DNA from: a virus
Direction: 5' to 3' (one strand)
Length of the DNA: 23,723 bases
Virus record (IMG/VR): IMGVR_UViG_3300044825_000668
Span: 1 to 23,723 of that record
The position numbers and the translations under genes were made by a program. Shown piece after piece: positions 16,137 to 23,723 of the stretch. Numbering within the stretch: the first letter of the stretch is position 1; each line of letters opens with the position of its first letter. Below the pieces are notes generated by a model. It was not told where the DNA came from and did not search any database. It worked only from the letters and a program-made list of their open reading frames with translations.

Positions 16137-16167
16137 GCACAATTCAAGGTCGTATCTTGGTTTGTGC
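16137..16167 (+). promoter_or_regulatory. 31-bp interrupted palindrome, copy 1
   Basis: Arms GCACAATTCAAGG and TCTTGGTTTGTGC around the centre TCGTA. In RNA the arms pair over almost the full length, with one U-U mismatch and two G-U wobbles. It ends 20 nt before the ATG at 16188, just ahead of its ribosome site. It is followed by GTTTTT, but without a strong G/C stem it is unlikely to be a terminator. Confidence 0.75.
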
Positions 16168-16187
16168 GTTTTTATGGAGATGTAATC

Positions 16188-16919
16188 ATGCCAAATAAGG
16201 CAAATACTAAAGTAGTAAACCCTTTTGAGGGTGTAGTGAATCAGGTTGTAAATCCCGATGGTTCTGTCGTTCCTGTGCAGTATGTGGCTAATCCTGCTGA
16301 GGTCTATAACTTATCGGCTGAGGAGTTTGCCGATTTGACGGATTTAGCAGAGGATTGGTTCAATGGTTGCGACCTACTCGGCAAAGGTAAAACCTTGCGT
16401 TCTGATACCGCCAAGGCTATCAAGAAAATGCTTGGTGAGTTGCCTGAGTTTGCCAAGTATCACGCCTACCGCCAAGCATTTATCAATCAAATGCTTAGTT
16501 CGGGCAAAACCAAGAACGATACCTCGGCTGGTCAGATGTGGAACGAGTTGATCGATTTGGTGCGTGATATATGCAAACCCTTTGCTATACCCAAATCACC
16601 CAAGGCTAATGCTCAGCGTATGCAGTCAAAGCGAGATCAGGAACGCAAGGCGTTGGAATCGCTTAGTGATGATGAGTTGCTGTCGGCTTTGGCTAATTAC
16701 ACTGATAGCAAACAGTTCACCAAGTGCAATATGGTGCAGACTGTATTGACTCAGCGTGAAAAACTTAGGGTTAAAAATGACCCCAAGTTAATCAAGGCTC
16801 AAGAGGAATTGAAAGCCAAGCGGGATTCGATTATTGCAGATGTTCGCAAAATTAAATCTATGGATCACCTAGCCAAGATCCAATCATACATGGCTCAGTA
16901 TGTTCCTAAAGTTGTCTAA
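16188..16919 (+). CDS. 243-aa phage protein of unknown function
   Basis: Start at ATG 16188 with GGAG upstream (TATGGAGATGTAATC); an ATG at 16101 in frame would run through the palindrome and is unlikely. The N-terminal 45 residues are beta-prone and repeat Asn/Val/Pro (KVVNPFEGVVNQVVNPDGSV). The rest is helical: LSAEEFADLTDLAEDWFNGC, LRSDTAKAIKKMLGELPEFA, then a Lys/Glu-rich C-terminal coiled coil (KAQEELKAKRDSIIADVRKI). No catalytic motif recognised. Tandem terminators follow immediately, so it ends a transcription unit. Confidence 0.7.
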   Translation: MPNKANTKVVNPFEGVVNQVVNPDGSVVPVQYVANPAEVYNLSAEEFADLTDLAEDWFNGCDLLGKGKTLRSDTAKAIKKMLGELPEFAKYHAYRQAFINQMLSSGKTKNDTSAGQMWNELIDLVRDICKPFAIPKSPKANAQRMQSKRDQERKALESLSDDELLSALANYTDSKQFTKCNMVQTVLTQREKLRVKNDPKLIKAQEELKAKRDSIIADVRKIKSMDHLAKIQSYMAQYVPKVV

Positions 16920-16935
16920 TTAGTCAGTTTTACCA

Positions 16936-16959
16936 AGCCCTCGAAAGAGGGCTTTTTTT
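16936..16959 (+). terminator. Rho-independent terminator 1
   Basis: Stem AGCCCTC / GAGGGCT with the tetraloop GAAA, followed by seven T. It lies 17 nt past the stop of the 243-aa protein gene. A GNRA tetraloop and a 7-bp stem make a strong intrinsic terminator. Confidence 0.95.
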
Positions 16960-16960
16960 C

Positions 16961-16987
16961 GCCTAGCATTTTTGCTAGGCTTTTTTT
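16961..16987 (+). terminator. Rho-independent terminator 2 (tandem)
   Basis: Stem GCCTAGCA / TGCTAGGC with loop TTTT, followed by seven T, starting 1 nt after the first terminator. A tandem pair of this kind insulates the upstream unit from the control region downstream. Confidence 0.95.
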
Positions 16988-17075
16988 ATTTCTTCACCCT
17001 CTTTAGTTCCCTATCTCAATAGGGAACGGTCATTGTAGCAACGCAATAGCCCTTTCTGACTTCGGGCTTTTTGAC

Positions 17076-17096
17076 TTATGCTGGAGTCCAGCATAA
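17076..17096 (+). promoter_or_regulatory. 21-bp near-perfect palindrome
   Basis: TTATGCTGGA then G then TCCAGCATAA: 10-bp perfect arms with a single central base. Not followed by a T-run, so not an intrinsic terminator. Size and symmetry suit an operator for a dimeric repressor, or a site in an origin. No second copy seen in the window. Confidence 0.6.
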
Positions 17097-17124
17097 CAAA
17101 ATTTATTTTGTTTGTCAAGCGTGC

Positions 17125-17456
17125 ATTGTTCTAAAAAACCCCCCTATTGTTCTGTATTGTTCTATGCCCTTGGAACATTCCTAACCCCTTGATTTAACTA
17201 AGTTTTATTGCGTTTTTTGGGGTATTGTTCTATTGTTCTGTCAAACTACAAACGCCAACTTTTTTTAGCCCTTCGAGAGACCCCCTTCGCATAGTGCAGA
17301 GGTGTTCCAAAGAAAAATTTGCCCCCCTTAATATAATCTAATAGAACAATAGAACAATATACTAAAACTAACCGCAAAGCCAATACCAGCATGGTTTTCT
17401 ATTGTTCTATCGCACATAGAACATTATCGAACATTACGAACAATACACAGAACATT
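17125..17456 (+). repeat. Array of ATTGTTCT / AGAACAAT repeats (iteron-like)
   Basis: Eight exact copies of the octamer, counted on both strands: forward at 17125, 17146, 17156, 17224, 17232 and 17401; reverse at 17343 and 17351. Five variants (GAACATT or GAACAAT) at 17173, 17419, 17429, 17438 and 17450. Close pairs are spaced 8-12 bp, roughly one helical turn. The array is about 330 bp and stops about 60 bp before the promoter. This is the pattern of iterons in origins or of cooperative operator sites. Confidence 0.8.
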
Positions 17457-17515
17457 CAACCCACAAAGCCCATGCCTACACACGCACACACAAGTAAAAT
17501 AAATCCTACAAACTC

Positions 17516-17544
17516 TTGACAAAGTAAGGTATTTGTGGTATACT
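17516..17544 (+). promoter_or_regulatory. Sigma70-type promoter
   Basis: A perfect -35 TTGACA (17516-17521), a 17-bp spacer and a -10 TATACT (17539-17544). Predicted transcription start is near 17551, giving an 89-nt leader that contains a 31-bp palindrome before the ATG at 17640. This is the clearest promoter in the window and should be read by host RNA polymerase, consistent with early transcription. Confidence 0.9.
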
Positions 17545-17590
17545 TAAAGAATGGGATATCGTCTAAATTTTTTGCAACCAAACCCAACCC

Positions 17591-17621
17591 GCACATTTCA
17601 AGTTCCCATCTTGATTTGTGC
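17591..17621 (+). promoter_or_regulatory. 31-bp interrupted palindrome, copy 2
   Basis: Arms GCACATTTCAAGT and TCTTGATTTGTGC around centre TCCCA; the arm variants are swapped relative to copies 3-5, as if the element were inverted. It lies about 40-70 nt downstream of the predicted transcription start, inside the leader, and ends 5 nt before AAGGAG of the next gene. Confidence 0.75.
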
Positions 17622-17639
17622 AACACAAGGAGATGTTAT

Positions 17640-17906
17640 ATGTATCAAGCAAAGTTTCAAACCAACACCGCATACGATACGCACATACTATGCACCGTAT
17701 GTCATTTCCCCAAAGTCACCCAAGGTCGCTACGACCACCTCAAAAGCATCAAACAACGCATTACTTGTCATGCCTGCGGTGAGAAGATTGCCGAGCAAGA
17801 ATCCCGCAAAAAGCAAAGCCGAGTATTACCCATCAACAAAAGCACCCCGACTTACATCAGCGACCCTGAGATGCTCAAGCAACTAAACCCAAAGAGGACG
17901 ACATGA
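17640..17906 (+). CDS. Zinc-ribbon small phage protein
   Basis: 88 aa. Start ATG 17640 with AAGGAG 7 nt upstream; a longer frame opening at 17535 begins before the predicted transcription start and is excluded. Two CxxC pairs (C18/C21 and C43/C46) enclose a basic loop (KVTQGRYDHLKSIKQRI), forming a four-Cys zinc ribbon. The tail is Lys/Arg/Ser/Pro-rich. Such ribbons bind nucleic acid or protein. It is the first gene after the strong promoter, and its stop overlaps the next ATG (ATGA). Confidence 0.75.
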   Translation: MYQAKFQTNTAYDTHILCTVCHFPKVTQGRYDHLKSIKQRITCHACGEKIAEQESRKKQSRVLPINKSTPTYISDPEMLKQLNPKRTT

Positions 17907-18268
17907 ACAGGCTACTAACAACAGAAAAACTACGGCAAGAAGTAGACGAAATATGGACAAAAACCCAAGCCTATGAAAAAGGCTACCAAGAAGGAAAGGA
18001 ATACCAAATGAGTGAACCAAGAGAACCAAGATTTGAAGATGATTTTGATTGCGATACCGACCCTCAAGAACCCATGCCACCCGCATGGTTTGAAACCACT
18101 ATCGAGGACATTGCAATCATGAAGTCCCACATCTACGCACAAGAGTATGACCCACACGCAGGCAGGGTCGTGCAAAAGGGCAATTACGCAGAAATCAAGG
18201 AAGCATACAAGGCGGGCTTTCTTGATGGCTTTACCCACCGCCTAACACAACTTAACACAGGAGAATAA
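17903..18268 (+). CDS. Acidic 121-aa phage protein of unknown function
   Basis: Starts MNRLLTTEKLRQEVDEIWTK and continues YEKGYQEGKEYQMSEPREPR, then an acidic stretch (FEDDFDCDTDPQEPMPPAWF) and a C-terminal helix EIKEAYKAGFLDGFTHRLTQ. The two Gly-Tyr/Gly-Phe repeats (EKGYQEGKEYQ and KAGFLDGFTHR) resemble each other. No family recognised. Coupled to the zinc-ribbon gene by overlap. Confidence 0.65.
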   Translation: MNRLLTTEKLRQEVDEIWTKTQAYEKGYQEGKEYQMSEPREPRFEDDFDCDTDPQEPMPPAWFETTIEDIAIMKSHIYAQEYDPHAGRVVQKGNYAEIKEAYKAGFLDGFTHRLTQLNTGE

Positions 18269-18270
18269 GT

Positions 18271-18453
18271 ATGACTACCTTCACAACCGAAGACCGCATC
18301 AATGCGGAAAAAACTCAAGAACTTCAAGCCGAGATACGCAATCTCAAGATCGAACTCAAGCACCAAAAAGAACGGGTCGAGAATTGGAAAGCGGCATACG
18401 ACAAAGTCATGGACTACAACAAGAAACTCCTCGCAAAGGGGTGTGACAAATGA
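18271..18453 (+). CDS. 60-aa coiled-coil protein
   Basis: Almost entirely helical with charged heptads: FTTEDRINAEKTQELQAEIR then IELKHQKERVENWKAAYDKV and DYNKKLLAKG. AGGAG lies 7 nt before the ATG. The stop overlaps the start of a 29-aa membrane peptide (ATGA). Function unknown; a dimerising partner of neighbours is possible. Confidence 0.65.
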   Translation: MTTFTTEDRINAEKTQELQAEIRNLKIELKHQKERVENWKAAYDKVMDYNKKLLAKGCDK

Positions 18454-18539
18454 AGTCGTTTTTGCAGATAGGGTTATTCCTACTCATGATCGCCGTATGC
18501 GTAGTCTTGTGGTCAATCAAGTTGGAGTATGGGTTATGA
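18450..18539 (+). CDS. 29-aa single-pass membrane peptide
   Basis: ATG 18450 overlaps the stop of the previous gene; 29 codons then TGA, which itself overlaps the next ATG at 18536. The translation starts MKSFLQIGLFLLMIAVCVVL and ends WSIKLEYGL, giving one clear transmembrane helix with a Lys at the inside end. ATGA overlaps on both sides argue that it is translated in the chain. Role unknown; candidates are a small membrane effector or toxin-like early peptide. Confidence 0.6.
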   Translation: MKSFLQIGLFLLMIAVCVVLWSIKLEYGL

Positions 18540-18721
18540 CTGAATACTACAAGGGACAACGCATTAGTGAGTTGTTGGGTGAGATTGACAGGCTGACCAA
18601 GATATTGGACACCTTCAAATTCGAGACCCTAAACCAAGCCGAGCAAGACCATGTGACCAAAGCGTTCTCGCAAATGGCAATCATGAAAGCCAAACTCACC
18701 GCATTACAGGGGGAGAAATGA
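18536..18721 (+). CDS. 61-aa helical phage protein
   Basis: Starts MTEYYKGQRISELLGEIDRL, then ILDTFKFETLNQAEQDHVTK and FSQMAIMKAKLTALQGEK. A longer open frame begins at 18302, but the overlapping ATGA at 18536 and the upstream membrane peptide define the start. Helical, with likely coiled-coil ends. No family recognised. Confidence 0.6.
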   Translation: MTEYYKGQRISELLGEIDRLTKILDTFKFETLNQAEQDHVTKAFSQMAIMKAKLTALQGEK

Positions 18722-18966
18722 CTTCCATGCGACTAGCCAAGCGAAGGTATCAGATGGAAATGCTGTTGGTTGATGCCCTACCAGATGAGCCACCAAGCCC
18801 TCAAACTATTCTTGAGAGTGCCGTAAATCGAGCAATCGAGGATTTGCAACAGGCTCAGGCAAGGGGTATTGATCGCCGACACAAAGACATATTGATTTGG
18901 AAGGCGTGTTTTGATTTGCAACAAGCAAGGGAGAAAGCAAATGAAGCAAAAAAAGATAGTAGTTGA
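18718..18966 (+). CDS. 82-aa helical phage protein
   Basis: Starts MTSMRLAKRRYQMEMLLVDA, then ILESAVNRAIEDLQQAQARG and DRRHKDILIWKACFDLQQAR. Amphipathic helices with a basic N-terminus. The start overlaps the previous stop (ATGA) and the 3' end overlaps the next gene by 26 nt. Unknown function. Confidence 0.6.
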   Translation: MTSMRLAKRRYQMEMLLVDALPDEPPSPQTILESAVNRAIEDLQQAQARGIDRRHKDILIWKACFDLQQAREKANEAKKDSS

Positions 18967-19201
18967 AGGCTTAGATATGACCACATACACAGGGACAGAA
19001 GACCCATACCATGTGGTGGGTAGAACTTATCGAACCGCAAGCGAGGCATTTAGAGATGCAGAGTATGCGTGTGCCATAGAAAAGCACACCTCAGACTTTC
19101 GCCATGCAGTTAGTTGGTTCTCGGATTTCTTTATGACTTTATTTATGGGTGGGTGTGCCATAGCCCTCCCAGTGTTGTTTGTTTTATGGCTAACCAAGTA
19201 G
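18941..19201 (+). CDS. Small membrane-anchored protein
   Basis: 86 aa from ATG 18941 (AAGGGAG upstream); an ATG at 18911 gives a longer frame inside the previous gene. A soluble N-terminal part (KIVVEGLDMTTYTGTEDPYH) with a helix TASEAFRDAEYACAIEKHTS precedes a C-terminal membrane helix (FFMTLFMGGCAIALPVLFVL). A tail-anchored topology is likely. A 31-bp palindrome starts 2 nt after the stop, so this gene closes a sub-cluster. Function unknown. Confidence 0.65.
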   Translation: MKQKKIVVEGLDMTTYTGTEDPYHVVGRTYRTASEAFRDAEYACAIEKHTSDFRHAVSWFSDFFMTLFMGGCAIALPVLFVLWLTK

Positions 19202-19202
19202 T

Positions 19203-19233
19203 GCACAAATCAAGACCTAGTCTTGAAATGTGT
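19203..19233 (+). promoter_or_regulatory. 31-bp interrupted palindrome, copy 3
   Basis: Arms GCACAAATCAAGA and TCTTGAAATGTGT around centre CCTAG. As RNA it gives a 5-bp outer stem, a 2x2 A/A internal loop and a 6-bp inner stem. It starts 1 nt after the stop of the preceding gene and ends 24 nt before the ATG at 19258. A TTTTTT run follows this copy only, so weak termination is possible here. Confidence 0.75.
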
Positions 19234-19257
19234 TTTTTAACTAACCAAGGAGTAATT

Positions 19258-19743
19258 ATGAATCAAGAAGCAAATGCAGTATTAGAAAAAGCGAAGTCTA
19301 ACTTATCAGCACCCGACTTCAAAACCATGTCCATCATGGAATCCACTAAGTGGTGTGTAGAGCGTGGCTACGATAAGCCTGCGGATATTTCAAGTATCAC
19401 AGGTAAAAAAGCAGGGGTTATTAGCACCGCCTTGTGGAAGATCCGCAACCCCAAGAGGGTCAAGGTTCTAGCCCGTCGTGCCGCTAAGAAAAAAGCGGCG
19501 GCTAAAAAGGGTAGCCCTGCCGTTATGAAGACCAAGAAACCCAAGGTCAAGAACGGCTACTACGCAGATGGTATGGAGACCCCATGGCTAGATGCGATAA
19601 AGCGTCAGGGTGTTTTCCCTGAGTTTGTAAAACCAAGAAGTCTTGAGATTGCAGACAACGCACTACTCGTTGCAGAGAATCGCAGGCTCAAGGTTTTGGT
19701 CGAGCACTACGAGTCCTTACTTTTCGGTAAGGGAGGCAAATGA
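19258..19743 (+). CDS. Basic helix-turn-helix-like phage protein
   Basis: 161 aa from ATG 19258 (AAGGAG upstream); the frame is open from 19114 but that part contains the palindrome. Residues about 25-65 read MESTKWCVERGYDKPADISS, ITGKKAGVISTALWKIRN, shaped like a winged or helix-turn-helix DNA-binding segment. A Lys/Ala-rich linker follows (ARRAAKKKAAAKKG), then PWLDAIKRQGVFPEFVKPRS and a C-terminal coiled coil ALLVAENRRLKVLVEHYESL. A DNA-binding regulator is inferred; a nucleoid-type protein is the alternative. Confidence 0.65.
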   Translation: MNQEANAVLEKAKSNLSAPDFKTMSIMESTKWCVERGYDKPADISSITGKKAGVISTALWKIRNPKRVKVLARRAAKKKAAAKKGSPAVMKTKKPKVKNGYYADGMETPWLDAIKRQGVFPEFVKPRSLEIADNALLVAENRRLKVLVEHYESLLFGKGGK

Positions 19744-20735
19744 TGTATAGATCCTCGATGTATAACTCAGCAAGACTGCCGAGTATTGCCAATTACGACA
19801 TGGCTAAGAGGATCTACCAAGAGGCTCGACCCATTCGTGGGCGATACCCTGAGGAGAGACCGCTTGGTAAGAACCGCAGATACTCATGGATGCAGATACA
19901 TGAACGGGTAAGAAGCATAGAGTCCGAGGGTAATCCCGTAGGCGAGTATGTCAAGACCTATGCGTGTCAGTTGTATAGCACCGACTGTGTGGAGTTCTTT
20001 CCCAACAACGAGGTAGTCATTCGTGTGAACTATTGGCGGGGTCCGACAACTCTCATGTTCATAAACCATACGCTAAAGGAATACATTGGCGAGATTGGTT
20101 CAGAAGGGCATAAGTGGTATTTCATCAATAAGAATGGTGAAGCATATCCTATGCCGACTGGGCATGGAACTGAGATGCGGGTCAAGTTCATTGATGGGTA
20201 TGGGTATCGACCACTCGAAGTTAAAGAGGAATACAAATGCAAGGTTCGCAGGAAAGAGATGAACCGACTGCGTAAGTATTACTCCGACTTCATCGAGTAT
20301 GGCAAGACTATGCTCATGGCAGACGAGAAACTTGGTGATTGGAAATACTTATCCAAGAACCGAGAAGAACTCGGACTCAGAGTCGATAGGTATTGTGGCT
20401 ATGATGTGTGGTCACACTACGACTCGAAGACGGATAAGCAACTCGAAGTTAAGATTGCCGACCAACGCAGTAGACTCATGCAACTTGTGCAACAAGCCAT
20501 GGAGAAGAACGACCTTGAACTCAAGCGGAAGTTAATGCTTGCGGTTGCTCAGATGAGAGGTAGTTATTACTACGGCGGTGGTAATGGTAATGATTATGCC
20601 GCTACTTCTGTTGCTTTTGTCTCAGCGTTCGAGGAGATCATGAAGTATCACCATCACGATGTAGTGTTCGAGAGAATACCGCAACCGATTGGTGTGCCCT
20701 TCCGTGATCGCAACGATAAGTATGTCCCGCAGTAA
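19740..20735 (+). CDS. 331-aa phage protein of unknown function preceding the MoxR gene
   Basis: Starts MMYRSSMYNSARLPSIANYD, in an ATGATG that overlaps the previous stop. Aromatic- and Arg-rich: RRYSWMQIHERVRSIESEGN, DCVEFFPNNEVVIRVNYWRG, SEGHKWYFINKNGEAYPMPT, then a charged helix RRKEMNRLRKYYSDFIEYGK and LVQQAMEKNDLELKRKLMLA. The middle is beta-rich and the C-terminal half helical. No motif recognised. The gap to the MoxR gene holds palindrome copy 4, so it may be a separate unit, although order suggests related function. Confidence 0.7.
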   Translation: MMYRSSMYNSARLPSIANYDMAKRIYQEARPIRGRYPEERPLGKNRRYSWMQIHERVRSIESEGNPVGEYVKTYACQLYSTDCVEFFPNNEVVIRVNYWRGPTTLMFINHTLKEYIGEIGSEGHKWYFINKNGEAYPMPTGHGTEMRVKFIDGYGYRPLEVKEEYKCKVRRKEMNRLRKYYSDFIEYGKTMLMADEKLGDWKYLSKNREELGLRVDRYCGYDVWSHYDSKTDKQLEVKIADQRSRLMQLVQQAMEKNDLELKRKLMLAVAQMRGSYYYGGGNGNDYAATSVAFVSAFEEIMKYHHHDVVFERIPQPIGVPFRDRNDKYVPQ

Positions 20736-20766
20736 ACACAAATCAAGATCGTATCTTGAAATGTGC
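20736..20766 (+). promoter_or_regulatory. 31-bp interrupted palindrome, copy 4
   Basis: Arms ACACAAATCAAGA and TCTTGAAATGTGC around centre TCGTA (the same centre as copy 1). It begins directly after the stop of the 331-aa protein gene and lies 40 nt before the ATG of the MoxR gene. The right arm includes TTGAAA, and TATTAA follows 16 nt later, a weak promoter-like pairing not shared by other copies. Confidence 0.75.
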
Positions 20767-20806
20767 GTAGTCTATTTTATTAACTTAATTAAACAAGGAG
20801 TATTAA

Positions 20807-21901
20807 ATGTCTGAAGTAATTTTGAACCGCCTTTGCACACTTAAAGAAGCAGAGGACATGATTGTAAGCATGGGTGAGGGTGCAACATTTCACTTGATGG
20901 GTGAACCGGGGGTCGGTAAGACTTCTATGTTTAGGAATATCGTAGAACGCACAGGGTATCGTGGAATCTACATTGATGCACCGAACATTGAACTCGGCGA
21001 ATTGGGTATTCCGATCCCAAATCACGAGACCAAGACCACCCATATCTATCCTAACGAGCAATGGGGTTTTCATATTGATGAACCTAAAGTGATCTTCATT
21101 GACGAGTTTACCAAGGCTCATCAGTCAGTTAAGAATATGCTACACCCAATGCTTAATTCACCACGCATGGTCATGGGTATCCCCTTACACAAGAAAGATA
21201 TAGTCGTAACGGCGGGTAATTACACCACCGATGGTGTGGGCGATAACATGATGAGCCATTCTCGTAATCGTATCAGCGTAATCAATATTAAGAAACCCAA
21301 CGCAGGCTTCAATATTGATGGTTCAGTTGATAAAGATTCGTGGGGCGAGTGGGCTTTGCGTAATGAGATCGCACCTGAGATCTTGGCGTGGGTTAAGGAA
21401 ACACCGCAGGCTTTGGCATCTTATCTTGACGCAGGTCAGAATGGGAACAAATATATCTTTAATCCTAAAGAGGTGCAACGGTCATTTGTTTCTCCCCGCT
21501 CGCTTGAGCGTGCTTCAAACATTCTCAAGAAACGCAACGAGTTCACCGAGAACGCAGTTATCTGTGCACTCGAAGGCACAATCGGTGCACCAGCAGCACG
21601 AGATCTTATGGCTTTTGTTGCAGTTGCAGATAGTTTGCCAACATGGGAGTCCATCATTAAAGACCCCAACAACGCAGTAGTTCCGAGTAGTCCTGCGGCT
21701 TTGTGCCTCTTGGCTTTCTCAGCAGTTCAGAAGGTTGATCGTCAAACGATTAGTAAGTTCTTTGAGTATCTCAAGCGGACACCCAAGGAGTTGCAATCCG
21801 TATTCTGCTTATCAGGCATGAAAGACGATGAGAAGAAGAAGTTGTTTTTTACTAGTCAGTCATTCGTAGATTGGATGCGGACTAATCAATATCTATTTTA
21901 A
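20807..21901 (+). CDS. MoxR-type AAA+ ATPase
   Basis: 364 aa. Walker A GEPGVGKT at 32-39, Walker B VIFIDE at 95-100, sensor 1 in VVTAGNYTTD (N138) and arginine candidates in SHSRNRI (about 153-155). The C-terminal helical lid is followed by a region KEVQRSFVSPRSLERASNIL. MoxR ATPases form hexamers that remodel partner proteins and usually act with a VWA-domain protein encoded beside them, as here. AAGGAG lies ahead of the ATG. Partners and substrate in the phage are unknown; a role in remodelling a host or phage complex is inferred. Confidence 0.9.
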   Translation: MSEVILNRLCTLKEAEDMIVSMGEGATFHLMGEPGVGKTSMFRNIVERTGYRGIYIDAPNIELGELGIPIPNHETKTTHIYPNEQWGFHIDEPKVIFIDEFTKAHQSVKNMLHPMLNSPRMVMGIPLHKKDIVVTAGNYTTDGVGDNMMSHSRNRISVINIKKPNAGFNIDGSVDKDSWGEWALRNEIAPEILAWVKETPQALASYLDAGQNGNKYIFNPKEVQRSFVSPRSLERASNILKKRNEFTENAVICALEGTIGAPAARDLMAFVAVADSLPTWESIIKDPNNAVVPSSPAALCLLAFSAVQKVDRQTISKFFEYLKRTPKELQSVFCLSGMKDDEKKKLFFTSQSFVDWMRTNQYLF

Positions 21902-21911
21902 GGAGATGTAA

Positions 21912-22205
21912 ATGAATCCAAGTGATTTCATAGAAATGACAGGTCGCAATAAAGAAGAGATTGATGCTCTGTTCAAGAAAGCCAACGAACTCAGAGAGGT
22001 GCTAGGCACTTACTTTGAGAAAGAGGAACTTGAGGTAGGCATAGTTGCATCTGTTCTCATGTCCATGTTAGTCGACATAATGATTCAAAACGAAACACCG
22101 CCACATCATGCAATTCTGATGTTTGGCACATTGGTTGCGTCTAAGTATGCAGACGAGGAAGAAGACGAAGCCGACAACGAAGGAGAAAACAAATGGCAAA
22201 ACTAA
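21912..22205 (+). CDS. Small acidic protein between MoxR and VWA genes
   Basis: 97 aa. N-terminal helices (SDFIEMTGRNKEEIDALFKK, NELREVLGTYFEKEELEVGI), a hydrophobic helical segment (ASVLMSMLVDIMIQ) and an acidic tail (YADEEEDEADNEGENKWQ). Starts 10 nt after the ATPase stop with AAGGAG, and overlaps the VWA start by 13 nt, so the three are one unit. A linker, inhibitor or adaptor for the pair is plausible; no family recognised. Confidence 0.75.
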   Translation: MNPSDFIEMTGRNKEEIDALFKKANELREVLGTYFEKEELEVGIVASVLMSMLVDIMIQNETPPHHAILMFGTLVASKYADEEEDEADNEGENKWQN

Positions 22206-23452
22206 CTGCTGAACAACGCATCGAGAGATGCCATGTGCAGATGATGAAGCATAGGAACTTTGCTTTGTTCTCAGGCTTGTTCATGATCGGTAAGGTAAGC
22301 GTGGTTGATGAATCACTACCCTATACTGCTCAGACCAACGGGCTTGATGTGAACTACGGCAGAGAGTTCGTGGATAGTTTGAATGACAAGCAGTTGTCGT
22401 TCCTTATCCTACATGAGAATATGCACAAGGCTTATCGGCATCTGATCGTGTGGGAAAAACTATACAAGCAGAACCCTGTGCTTGCGAACATGGCTTGCGA
22501 CTATGTGATTAACTTGCAGATTTACGACTACGATCCTCATCAGGAAGTCACCGAGTTTCCCACAACGCCTGACGGCAAGAATCTTGGTTGCATGGATGAA
22601 GCGTATCGTGGCATGGATGCACATCAAGTCTTTCTAAAACTTGTGCAGAAGTATGGCAAAGATGCAGGCAAACCCAAGGTCATTGTGATTGGTGATGATG
22701 GTAAGGGTCAAGTCGAAATTGTAGAGACTACTGACTTACCTGAAGGACTAGACGATCACGATTGGGAAGGTGCTGAGTCTATGTCAGACCAAGAGAAGGA
22801 GAGCCAAGCCAAAGAAATCGAGTCTGCTTTGCGGCAAGGTTCTATTCTTGTGGGCAAGATGGGTGGTGATGTTAGTCGCAACATTAGTGAAATGCTTGTG
22901 CCTAAGATAAATTGGAAAGATGCTCTGCGTGAGTTTGTGAAGTCAGTCACGCAAGGCAAAGACCAAACCACTTGGCGTAGATTGCACAAGAGATACATAG
23001 CCTCGGACATTATCATGCCGAGTAGTTATGACGAGAAGGTCGGTGGCATCATCATTGGCATCGACACATCGGGATCAATCGGAAGTGCTGAACTTACGCA
23101 GTTCTTGTCAGAGGTGAAGTCCATCTGTGATGAGGTATGCCCTGAGTTCATTGATGTGTTGTATTGGGATACCCATGTGGCATCGAGAGAAACATACCAA
23201 GGTAGTGAGTTATCTAACTTGGTTGAATCTACGAAGCCTGCGGGTGGCGGTGGGACTGAGCCTGCCTGTGTGCCCAAGTATATGAAGAAGAATCATATGA
23301 AAGCCGAGTGCTTGCTCATGCTAACCGATGGATTCATTCCTAATCAAGAACCAAGTAATTGGGAAGTTGGAATGCCTATCTTGTGGTGCGTGAAAGGCAA
23401 TAACCATTTTAACGAAACCAAAGTTGTAGGAAAGGTGGTGCATGTTGAGTAA
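22193..23452 (+). CDS. VWA-like protein with N-terminal putative metallopeptidase domain (DUF2201-type)
   Basis: 419 aa. The N-terminal domain has HENMH (H74, E75, H78), an HExxH zinc motif, with D103 in ACDYVINL as a possible third ligand. The C-terminal VWA-like domain has an intact metal-ion adhesion site: DTSGS (D291, S293, S295), T355 in GGGGTEP and D379 in LTDG. An acidic linker (about 180-215) separates them. Proteins of this layout pair with MoxR ATPases in bacteria and phages. Metal-dependent binding to a target delivered to the ATPase is the expected role; peptidase activity has not been shown to my knowledge. Confidence 0.85.
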   Translation: MAKLTAEQRIERCHVQMMKHRNFALFSGLFMIGKVSVVDESLPYTAQTNGLDVNYGREFVDSLNDKQLSFLILHENMHKAYRHLIVWEKLYKQNPVLANMACDYVINLQIYDYDPHQEVTEFPTTPDGKNLGCMDEAYRGMDAHQVFLKLVQKYGKDAGKPKVIVIGDDGKGQVEIVETTDLPEGLDDHDWEGAESMSDQEKESQAKEIESALRQGSILVGKMGGDVSRNISEMLVPKINWKDALREFVKSVTQGKDQTTWRRLHKRYIASDIIMPSSYDEKVGGIIIGIDTSGSIGSAELTQFLSEVKSICDEVCPEFIDVLYWDTHVASRETYQGSELSNLVESTKPAGGGGTEPACVPKYMKKNHMKAECLLMLTDGFIPNQEPSNWEVGMPILWCVKGNNHFNETKVVGKVVHVE

Positions 23453-23606
23453 TCAGAAACGGGTGAATGTCTCGATTAACCCTGAGACCATGGAGTTGCT
23501 TACTATTGAGAGAAGTAAGTTGGCGGAGATCCTAGGCTTTACTCCGTCGTATTCTCAAGTAATACAACACATTATTAAATCTGCACAAACCAAGACCCAA
23601 TCTTGA
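23442..23606 (+). CDS. 54-aa ribbon-helix-helix-like DNA-binding protein
   Basis: ATG 23442 overlaps the end of the VWA gene by 11 nt, with GGAAAGGTGG upstream. The protein starts MLSNQKRVNVSINPETMELL, then TIERSKLAEILGFTPSYSQV and IQHIIKSA. A short strand (RVNVSI), then a helix and a second helix after GFTPSYSQ fit the Arc/CopG ribbon-helix-helix fold, which binds palindromic operators as a dimer of dimers. Its last codons overlap palindrome copy 5. It is a candidate regulator of the palindrome family; binding is inference. Confidence 0.65.
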   Translation: MLSNQKRVNVSINPETMELLTIERSKLAEILGFTPSYSQVIQHIIKSAQTKTQS

Positions 23607-23613
23607 AATGTGC
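23583..23613 (+). promoter_or_regulatory. 31-bp interrupted palindrome, copy 5
   Basis: Arms GCACAAACCAAGA and TCTTGAAATGTGC around centre CCCAA. It overlaps the last 24 nt of the ribbon-helix-helix-like gene and ends 19 nt before the ATG at 23633. Overlap with coding sequence shows the element is constrained by both uses. Confidence 0.75.
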
Positions 23614-23632: not shown

Positions 23633-23723
23633 ATGAATAACTCAATTAGTATTGGATCATCAGCAATGCTTGTCGAACTCAGTATCCGTAGTTGGACTGG
23701 TCGCAAGTTGGACAAGAGTGTGT
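23633..23723 (+). CDS. Partial phage protein (runs off the right edge)
   Basis: ATG 23633 with AAGGAG upstream; 30 codons are visible with no stop: MNNSISIGSSAMLVELSIRS then WTGRKLDKSV. The wording (SSAML VEL...WTGRKLDK) recalls a hypothetical protein of several environmental phages, as I remember it. Too short to say more. Preceded by palindrome copy 5, so it begins another sub-cluster. Confidence 0.6.
   Translation, partial: MNNSISIGSSAMLVELSIRSWTGRKLDKSV

Follow-up and report, generated by a model that had tools for sequence, protein, structure and literature searches.

Repeated dyads at fixed early-gene slots in a phage group point to a phage-made DNA-binding switch of changing specificity

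The IMG/VR virus record IMGVR_UViG_3300044825_000668, the 23,723 bases of which are referred to here as the window, carries five copies of a 31-bp interrupted inverted repeat (dyad), each shortly ahead of a gene start, and related uncultivated phages carry dyads of the same architecture at the same gene slots, with arms that are lineage-specific and that change without compensation between them. What is new here is a paired word held at fixed early-gene slots, the sequence of which differs from phage to phage. Sequence comparisons point to a phage-made DNA-binding switch with ever-changing specificity; we consider it probable that the dyads are operator sites and that a phage-encoded symmetric assembly recognises them in double-stranded DNA, with the product of the gene family cl1 as the best candidate.

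Several clusters of actinophages have been described as carrying start-associated repeats, to which neither a reader nor a function has been assigned. The 49 loci with long dyads described below, in which many different blocks occupy the same slots, make both the question of DNA or RNA and that of the reader testable. If cl1 is indeed the reader, the group would constitute a natural library of a regulator and many operators changing together, and would provide start-associated repeats with an assigned reader.

Results

Matching of the fixed positions GCACA, CAAG, CTTG and TGTGC at up to three mismatches finds exactly five sites in the window and no sixth, compared with 0.01 expected from dinucleotide shuffles. 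All five are on the + strand as written, are 31 bp long and have 13-nt arms. Copy 1 (16137-16167, centre TCGTA) lies 20 nt ahead of the cl1 ATG at 16188, and copy 2 (17591-17621, TCCCA) lies 18 nt ahead of the ATG of a zinc-ribbon-like gene at 17640 and 46 nt past the -10 box of a sigma70-type promoter that is predicted to be strong (TTGACA-17-TATACT, 17516-17544, + strand). Copy 3 (19203-19233, CCTAG) begins 1 nt past the previous stop codon and precedes the ATG of a helix-turn-helix (HTH)/coiled-coil-like gene at 19258 by 24 nt; copy 4 (20736-20766, TCGTA) immediately follows a stop codon, 40 nt ahead of the ATG of an AAA ATPase gene at 20807; and copy 5 (23583-23613, CCCAA), 19 nt ahead of a DUF3150-type gene starting at 23633, overlaps the last codons and the stop of a 54-residue ribbon-helix-helix (RHH)-like open reading frame (23442-23606). 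The A-rich middles of the arms are on the + strand in copies 3-5 and on the - strand in copies 1 and 2.

These results confirm the initial annotation of this DNA with respect to the number, positions, size, arms and centres of the dyads, and to their absence from the minus-strand late genes, no further copy being present anywhere in the window at up to three mismatches in the fixed positions. The exact consensus given there matches three of the five copies, the copy at 19203 having T at its end and that at 20736 A at its start. The proposed distance of 20-41 nt to the ATG holds for copies 1, 3 and 4, whereas copies 2 and 5 are slightly closer, and copy 5, for which a gap ahead of the gene was likewise proposed, does not occupy a clean one. 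Mispairing in the middle of the arms, described there for two positions in most copies, is found at position 7 (5/5 copies) and position 6 (4/5); copies 1 and 5 also have a weak pair or a mismatch at position 8.

Relatives were found via the gene for a VWA/DUF2201 protein; the best 80 of 221 confirmed, together with the window, make up 81 loci, some of which are near copies of each other (e.g. identical VWA proteins in L120-L125). A repeated-dyad family, defined as at least three copies with centre lengths of 2-8 bp covered, is present in 58 of the 81 loci. In 49 of the 58 the half-site has two blocks (long class, with three or more of the outer columns well conserved), and the other nine are of a short class with at most two such columns, as exemplified by CCTAACA-N-TGTTAGG. 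The long half-site consists of an outer block (mostly nnACA) and an inner block of five bases, between which lie three positions that are free but A/T-rich, with the half-sites separated by 3, 4 or 5 bp depending on the phage. Among 210 distinct odd-centre elements aligned on their centres, the strongest left-arm columns are an outer A (205/210) and C (193) and an inner C (188) and A (177), with the right arm mirroring them, and no flanking column stands out; the blocks in the window sit one base farther from the centre than in this pooled alignment.

The arm sequences are lineage-specific. GGACA-nAG-TGTCA dyads occur in nine loci (L099, L107-L110, L113, L116, L118, L126), TCACA-AAT-CGAAA dyads in L104, AACA-nnn-CGACA dyads with a 4-bp centre in L101-L103, L105 and L106, ACT-TnG-CGACA dyads in L112, L115 and L131-L133, GGACA-AAG-TTACA dyads in L121-L125 and L136, and GGACA-nnC-TTAG dyads with a 4-bp centre in L117, L119 and L129; further families exist. 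When 2.9 million viral contigs were scanned with the 16 fixed bases of the window element, 11 stretches were found, of which only one (L015/G001, a 60-kb contig) has the arms and spacing of the window, although near-identical records may be omitted from this count. L015 carries the first three window copies at identical spacing and no others at up to two mismatches. The other ten stretches have different arms and a single site each, one with a second site at one mismatch; by our own estimate, ten extra matches are about what chance gives for a 16-base pattern. The exact element, the absence of which from related phages with the same genes had been put forward as a refutation, is missing from most relatives, whereas its architecture and slots are present. 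The VWA proteins of L096 and L097, for example, are 86% and 84% identical to that of the window (inner block CAAGA), yet the blocks of their dyads differ from those of the window. In one relative, L137, the inner blocks are mixed (TTACA, AGACA, ATACA, TGACA and GTACA), and this phage has perhaps been caught mid-change of specificity.

The short-dyad relatives L157 (2299-14641), L162, L165, L151, L159 and L173 repeat the dyad CCTAACA-N(1-2)-TGTTAGG 5 to 22 times, compared with none in shuffles. Association with gene starts is weak in this class, 50 of 131 copies lying within 45 nt of a Shine-Dalgarno-like word and start codon, as against 16-34% of random places.

For the long class, slots were scored in 46 loci, a slot being an element that ends at most 150 nt upstream of a gene. 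By this measure the AAA ATPase gene has an element ahead of it in 39/43 loci, the DUF3150-type gene in 33/42, a VRR-NUC-like gene (named by eye) in 34/36, mostly at 74-119 nt, cl1 in 28/43, the zinc-ribbon-like gene in 23/41 and cl54, the family of the gene after copy 3, in 9/15. The corresponding counts are 0/41 for cl18, 0/39 for cl4, 0/33 for the RHH gene and 3/46 for the VWA gene. The slots are therefore kept across phages while the dyad sequence turns over. When eight contigs of 55-67 kb were searched with each record's own weights (for G001, G017 and G020 over bases 1-60,000), the sites in each were confined to a single stretch no longer than 10.0 kb, with three sites in G001, near its end, and 5-11 in G016-G021 and G031. 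Smaller records have 2-7 sites each, and G027 gave none because the search covered its first 20 kb.

A Shine-Dalgarno-like word and start codon lie within 45 nt of 137 of the 210 elements, compared with 18% of 1050 random places, so that, together with the slot counts, the tie of the dyads to gene starts proposed from the window is real and conserved across relatives. In the 75 nt upstream, a sigma70-type promoter score above the 95th percentile of shuffles was obtained for 35 of the 210 elements; for 24 the score was at least 11, with the -10 box 24-46 nt from the element. Seven loci each have two such strongly promoter-linked elements, by eye mostly one in front of cl1 and the other in front of either the zinc-ribbon-like gene or a small gene that precedes it. 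A phage-specific promoter was rejected, as no aligned boxes were found around the 210 elements.

Arm-by-arm analysis covered 199 elements in 29 loci, at columns that are at least 70% conserved within a locus, with L016 (the same contig as L109), L015, L034 and L119 left out. Deviations from the arm consensus comprise 166 one-arm changes, three complementary two-arm changes and four non-complementary two-arm changes. The arms pair at 2007 of 2587 positions, compared with 2046.8 when right arms are shuffled among the copies of one phage (z -3.6); for the phages with a 4-bp centre (50 elements in seven loci) the values are 476 of 700 and 508.9 (z -5.0). The inner block alone has no deficit (918/995 paired, 912.8 shuffled, z +1.2), because it scarcely varies. 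The same base on the same strand at an arm distance of 9 is found 87 times, compared with 70.4. Given the dominance of one-arm changes and the pairing below that of shuffles, each arm is seemingly read separately. Extra pairing between the arms is perhaps avoided, possibly since a stable leader hairpin would be harmful.

Co-occurrence with the long element was scored for gene families present in at least three of 16 records, comparing 35 long-element loci having at least 7 kb upstream with ten others. cl1 is present in 35/35 of the former and 0/10 of the latter and is the only tested family so distributed; the next families are RHH (26/35), cl48 (22/35) and cl45 (20/35), each found in none of the ten others. 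Element distance correlates with cl1 distance (Mantel r 0.65-0.68, n=33; 0.66-0.69 partial on VWA), and the values for other proteins are 0.31 (cl18), 0.26 (zinc-ribbon-like), 0.26 (cl10), 0.24 (DUF3150-type), 0.16 (VWA) and 0.10 (ATPase). For the inner block alone, r with cl1 is 0.40-0.43 (partial on VWA 0.46-0.50). When the 33 relatives are assigned by hand to 12 classes according to their blocks and the length of the centre, 11 class changes, the minimum for 12 classes, are needed on the tree of the last cl1 copy and 14 on that of the zinc-ribbon-like protein. L099 (TGTCA) and L104 (CGAAA) are neighbours on the VWA tree, while the cl1 of L099 groups with that of other TGTCA phages and the cl1 of L104 with those of the window and the 4-bp-centre CGACA phages. 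Two cl1 copies are present in 16 loci (L099, L107-L110, L113, L116-L119, L121, L122, L126, L129, L137 and L139), and in several TGTCA phages (L107, L108, L109, L113 and L118) the first lies upstream of all detected elements.

The cl1 protein of the window (16188-16919, + strand) has 243 residues, is mostly helical and has no significant family match; it is encoded directly after copy 1 and, as the candidate reader, would therefore probably be self-regulated. An AlphaFold model of cl1 is almost all-helical (pLDDT 87.8, pTM 0.59). No strong match to a known DNA-binding fold was found for cl1, either by structure or by sequence, and the single match in a genome collection, over 66 residues, is to a metagenome-assembled genome of Planctomycetaceae.

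The other genes discussed here are all on the + strand: that for the small zinc-ribbon-like protein cl47 at 17640-17906 (the ribbon being assigned by eye from CxxC pairs), that for the HTH/coiled-coil-like protein cl54 at 19258-19743 (motif by eye), the AAA ATPase gene (phrog_1297) with its conserved upstream element slot at 20807-21901, the gene for the DUF2201 metallopeptidase-like/VWA protein (phrog_1314), which served to find relatives, at 22193-23452, the RHH-like gene at 23442-23606 (assigned to RHH by eye, with nothing found in Pfam at E 0.05), which is the reader suggested in the initial annotation, and the start of the DUF3150-type gene at 23633-23723, cut by the end of the window. 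PHROG 1314 is labelled 'HNH endonuclease', a label that is repeated in many phage records, whereas Pfam gives metallopeptidase-like and VWA-like domains for 22193-23452. Upstream of the promoter at 17516, an array of TGTTCT/AGAACA boxes extends over 17120-17450, and a further dyad, TTATGCTGGAGTCCAGCATAA, lies near 17077, with similar dyads in L096, L099 and L109.

Discussion

The mechanism that we favour is that a phage-encoded protein would bind the dyads as a symmetric assembly on double-stranded DNA. With some sites just past predicted sigma70 promoters and others ahead of gene clusters that come later in that early region, the simplest role of bound protein would be as repeated roadblocks or silencers of early transcription when the phage leaves the early stage, and the inner block would change between phages together with its reader; the protein may instead be an activator or a DNA-looping protein. 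cl1, a fast-changing helical protein, is the best candidate for the reader, the link being correlative. It could be a new kind of sequence-specific DNA-binding protein, with no significant match in Pfam, PHROGs or solved structures and with an easily re-tuned specificity, the fixed-slot operators of which have been rewritten many times in one phage group, a proposal that we put forward tentatively and with some doubt.

Several observations weigh against this reading. Strong predicted promoters are lacking upstream of 186 of the 210 elements, and the inner block, hardly varying within a phage, is too constant for the pairing test. The long/other labels and the anchored consensus strings used for co-occurrence were set by hand, L143 being counted as long on a two-copy family, although the family search bore out 34 of the 35 long labels (six of the ten others carry short dyads). 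The VWA tree needs only two changes for the long class, and the cl1 co-occurrence therefore rests on few independent events; a weak cl1 match (E 7e-4) is present in L155, a locus outside the test set in which no long element was detected. Class changes separate the proteins little, with 12 for the first cl1 copy, 11 for cl18, 12 for cl10, 13 for VWA and 13 for the ATPase, and 7-9 for every protein across the 25 RHH loci. cl1 has no known fold match (best Foldseek E 1.4 in the PDB and 0.08 among viral models; best VIA-align Z 4.5), and its median isoelectric point is 5.8 over 48 copies, 13 of which are above 8 (the window copy is at 9.0). Three single queries found no cl1 in phages, a search by which so divergent a family could be missed. 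Short-dyad relatives and the Planktothrix phage Pag-Yong1 carry dyads with no detected cl1, and another reader is therefore needed there. Finally, the correlations for the RHH protein are close to or slightly above those for cl1, as set out next.

The RHH protein, which is encoded upstream of copy 5 and was initially suggested for this role, seems to us unlikely to be the reader, although part of the case for it stands. Its gene ends within copy 5, its distance tracks that of the element (r 0.61, n=25; partial on VWA 0.59), nearly equalling cl1, its inner-block correlation (r 0.46, partial on VWA 0.60) slightly exceeds that of cl1, and it too is confined to long-element loci in the co-occurrence set. 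The inner-block correlations count in favour of the RHH protein and against cl1 as a new kind of DNA-binding protein. The RHH family was not, however, found in nine of the 35 long-element loci, its gene is preceded by an element in none of 33, and the presumed contact residues, assigned from general knowledge of the residues that face DNA in this fold, are alike (K-N-S) in L096, L097, L109 and L121 despite four different inner blocks; they do differ in L137, L138, L146 and L163. Two-fold sites are usual for Cro-like HTH_3 proteins, and a small protein of this type was found by profile in 10 of 16 records; among the 12 long records, nine match HTH_3 (four over the curated cut-off and not all of one protein). 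It is nevertheless quite improbable that such a protein reads the inner dyad while the outer blocks are read by a different one, because the recognition helix VSRMTMYTWF is identical in CAAG-type (G001, G014) and CGAC-type (G012) phages; we rejected the HTH_3 protein as specificity factor on this ground. The cl54 HTH/coil protein was also rejected as reader, being present in 16/35 loci, with a recognition-like helix that by eye is not tied to block type.

The initial annotation left open a DNA-binding protein or an RNA hairpin, and the arm test favours the DNA operator. In an RNA mechanism, the transcribed dyad would fold in the leader, where it could be a site of binding or cleavage or could control how the following gene is translated, as might be expected from the position of the window elements 18-40 nt ahead of ATGs, the association with Shine-Dalgarno-like words and starts (137/210) and the nearly constant pairing of the inner blocks. 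Yet compensation is lacking (166 one-arm changes but three complementary ones in both arms), the arms pair less often than in shuffles, the same base recurs in excess on the same strand at arm distance 9, and no part of the window reaches the gathering score of any Rfam family; we therefore hold an RNA role to be improbable. Even less likely, in our assessment, is that the dyads serve recombination, module exchange or replication rather than gene control. They do lie at module borders, their centres vary and the genes between slots differ among phages, but they are ahead of gene starts, on the operon strand and in one early region, and no integrase was found in 12/12 records. A classical lysogeny operator was likewise rejected, as these 12 records, possibly fragments, have no integrase.

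Comparison with known systems

Start-associated or repeated elements of unknown function have been described for actinophages of Clusters EG, K, EF and O. We found no literature description of the window element or of the Pag-Yong1 dyad, although one may nonetheless be in print. Cluster EG Microbacterium phages have 8-10 copies of an 18-bp inverted repeat, the function of which is given as unknown (PMC7302621), and share with the phages studied here several copies of one inverted repeat just ahead of start codons. The centre of that repeat is 2 bp long and its sequence is shared by the three phages (PMC7302621), whereas here the half-site has two blocks (31 bp in the window) and falls into 12 classes; neither the window nor any of the 58 families has the arms of the EG sequence, GATCAACC-NN-GGTTGATC. 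The SAS/ESAS elements of Cluster K likewise comprise inverted repeats that lie ahead of the starts of many non-structural genes, with a consensus that varies by subcluster, but have 17-bp arms and a 4-13 bp spacer and are tied to a 13-bp ribosome-site-like SAS (PMC3203893); around our 210 elements no conserved column at a fixed distance was found that might represent an SAS-like partner, variable distances not having been searched. The 17-bp palindrome of Cluster O has a free 3-bp centre and 34 copies in Corndog, is denser toward one genome end and, unlike the dyads here, is only loosely tied to starts, with about one-third of copies within genes and invariant arms (PMC4351075).

Outside the actinophages, the Planktothrix phage Pag-Yong1 (L217, OL906435.1) has 26 copies of GGTTCAG-N-CTGAACC at up to two mismatches in the 40.8 kb searched, compared with 0.1 per shuffle, and 17 of the 26 lie within 60 nt ahead of an annotated start. 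Its layout is similar, with terminase and portal genes leftwards and ATPase, DUF3150-type and VWA genes rightwards, but its dyad is short and single-block, the order of the DUF3150-type and VWA genes is swapped and no cl1 was detected. Three records of identical length (65,014 bp) have been deposited under different phage and host names.

The stoperators of Cluster A phages are many sites spread genome-wide with phage-specific motifs, for which motif and repressor distances correlate (PMC6550527; see also PMC9283540). They are asymmetric 13-bp sites, mostly in one orientation and bound by a monomeric repressor (PMC6550527), whereas the elements described here are symmetric: a two-fold dyad, with both polarities of the arm middles in the window, is not what an asymmetric site of fixed orientation would give. 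By analogy, the dyads may resemble stoperators in possible action, if not in form.

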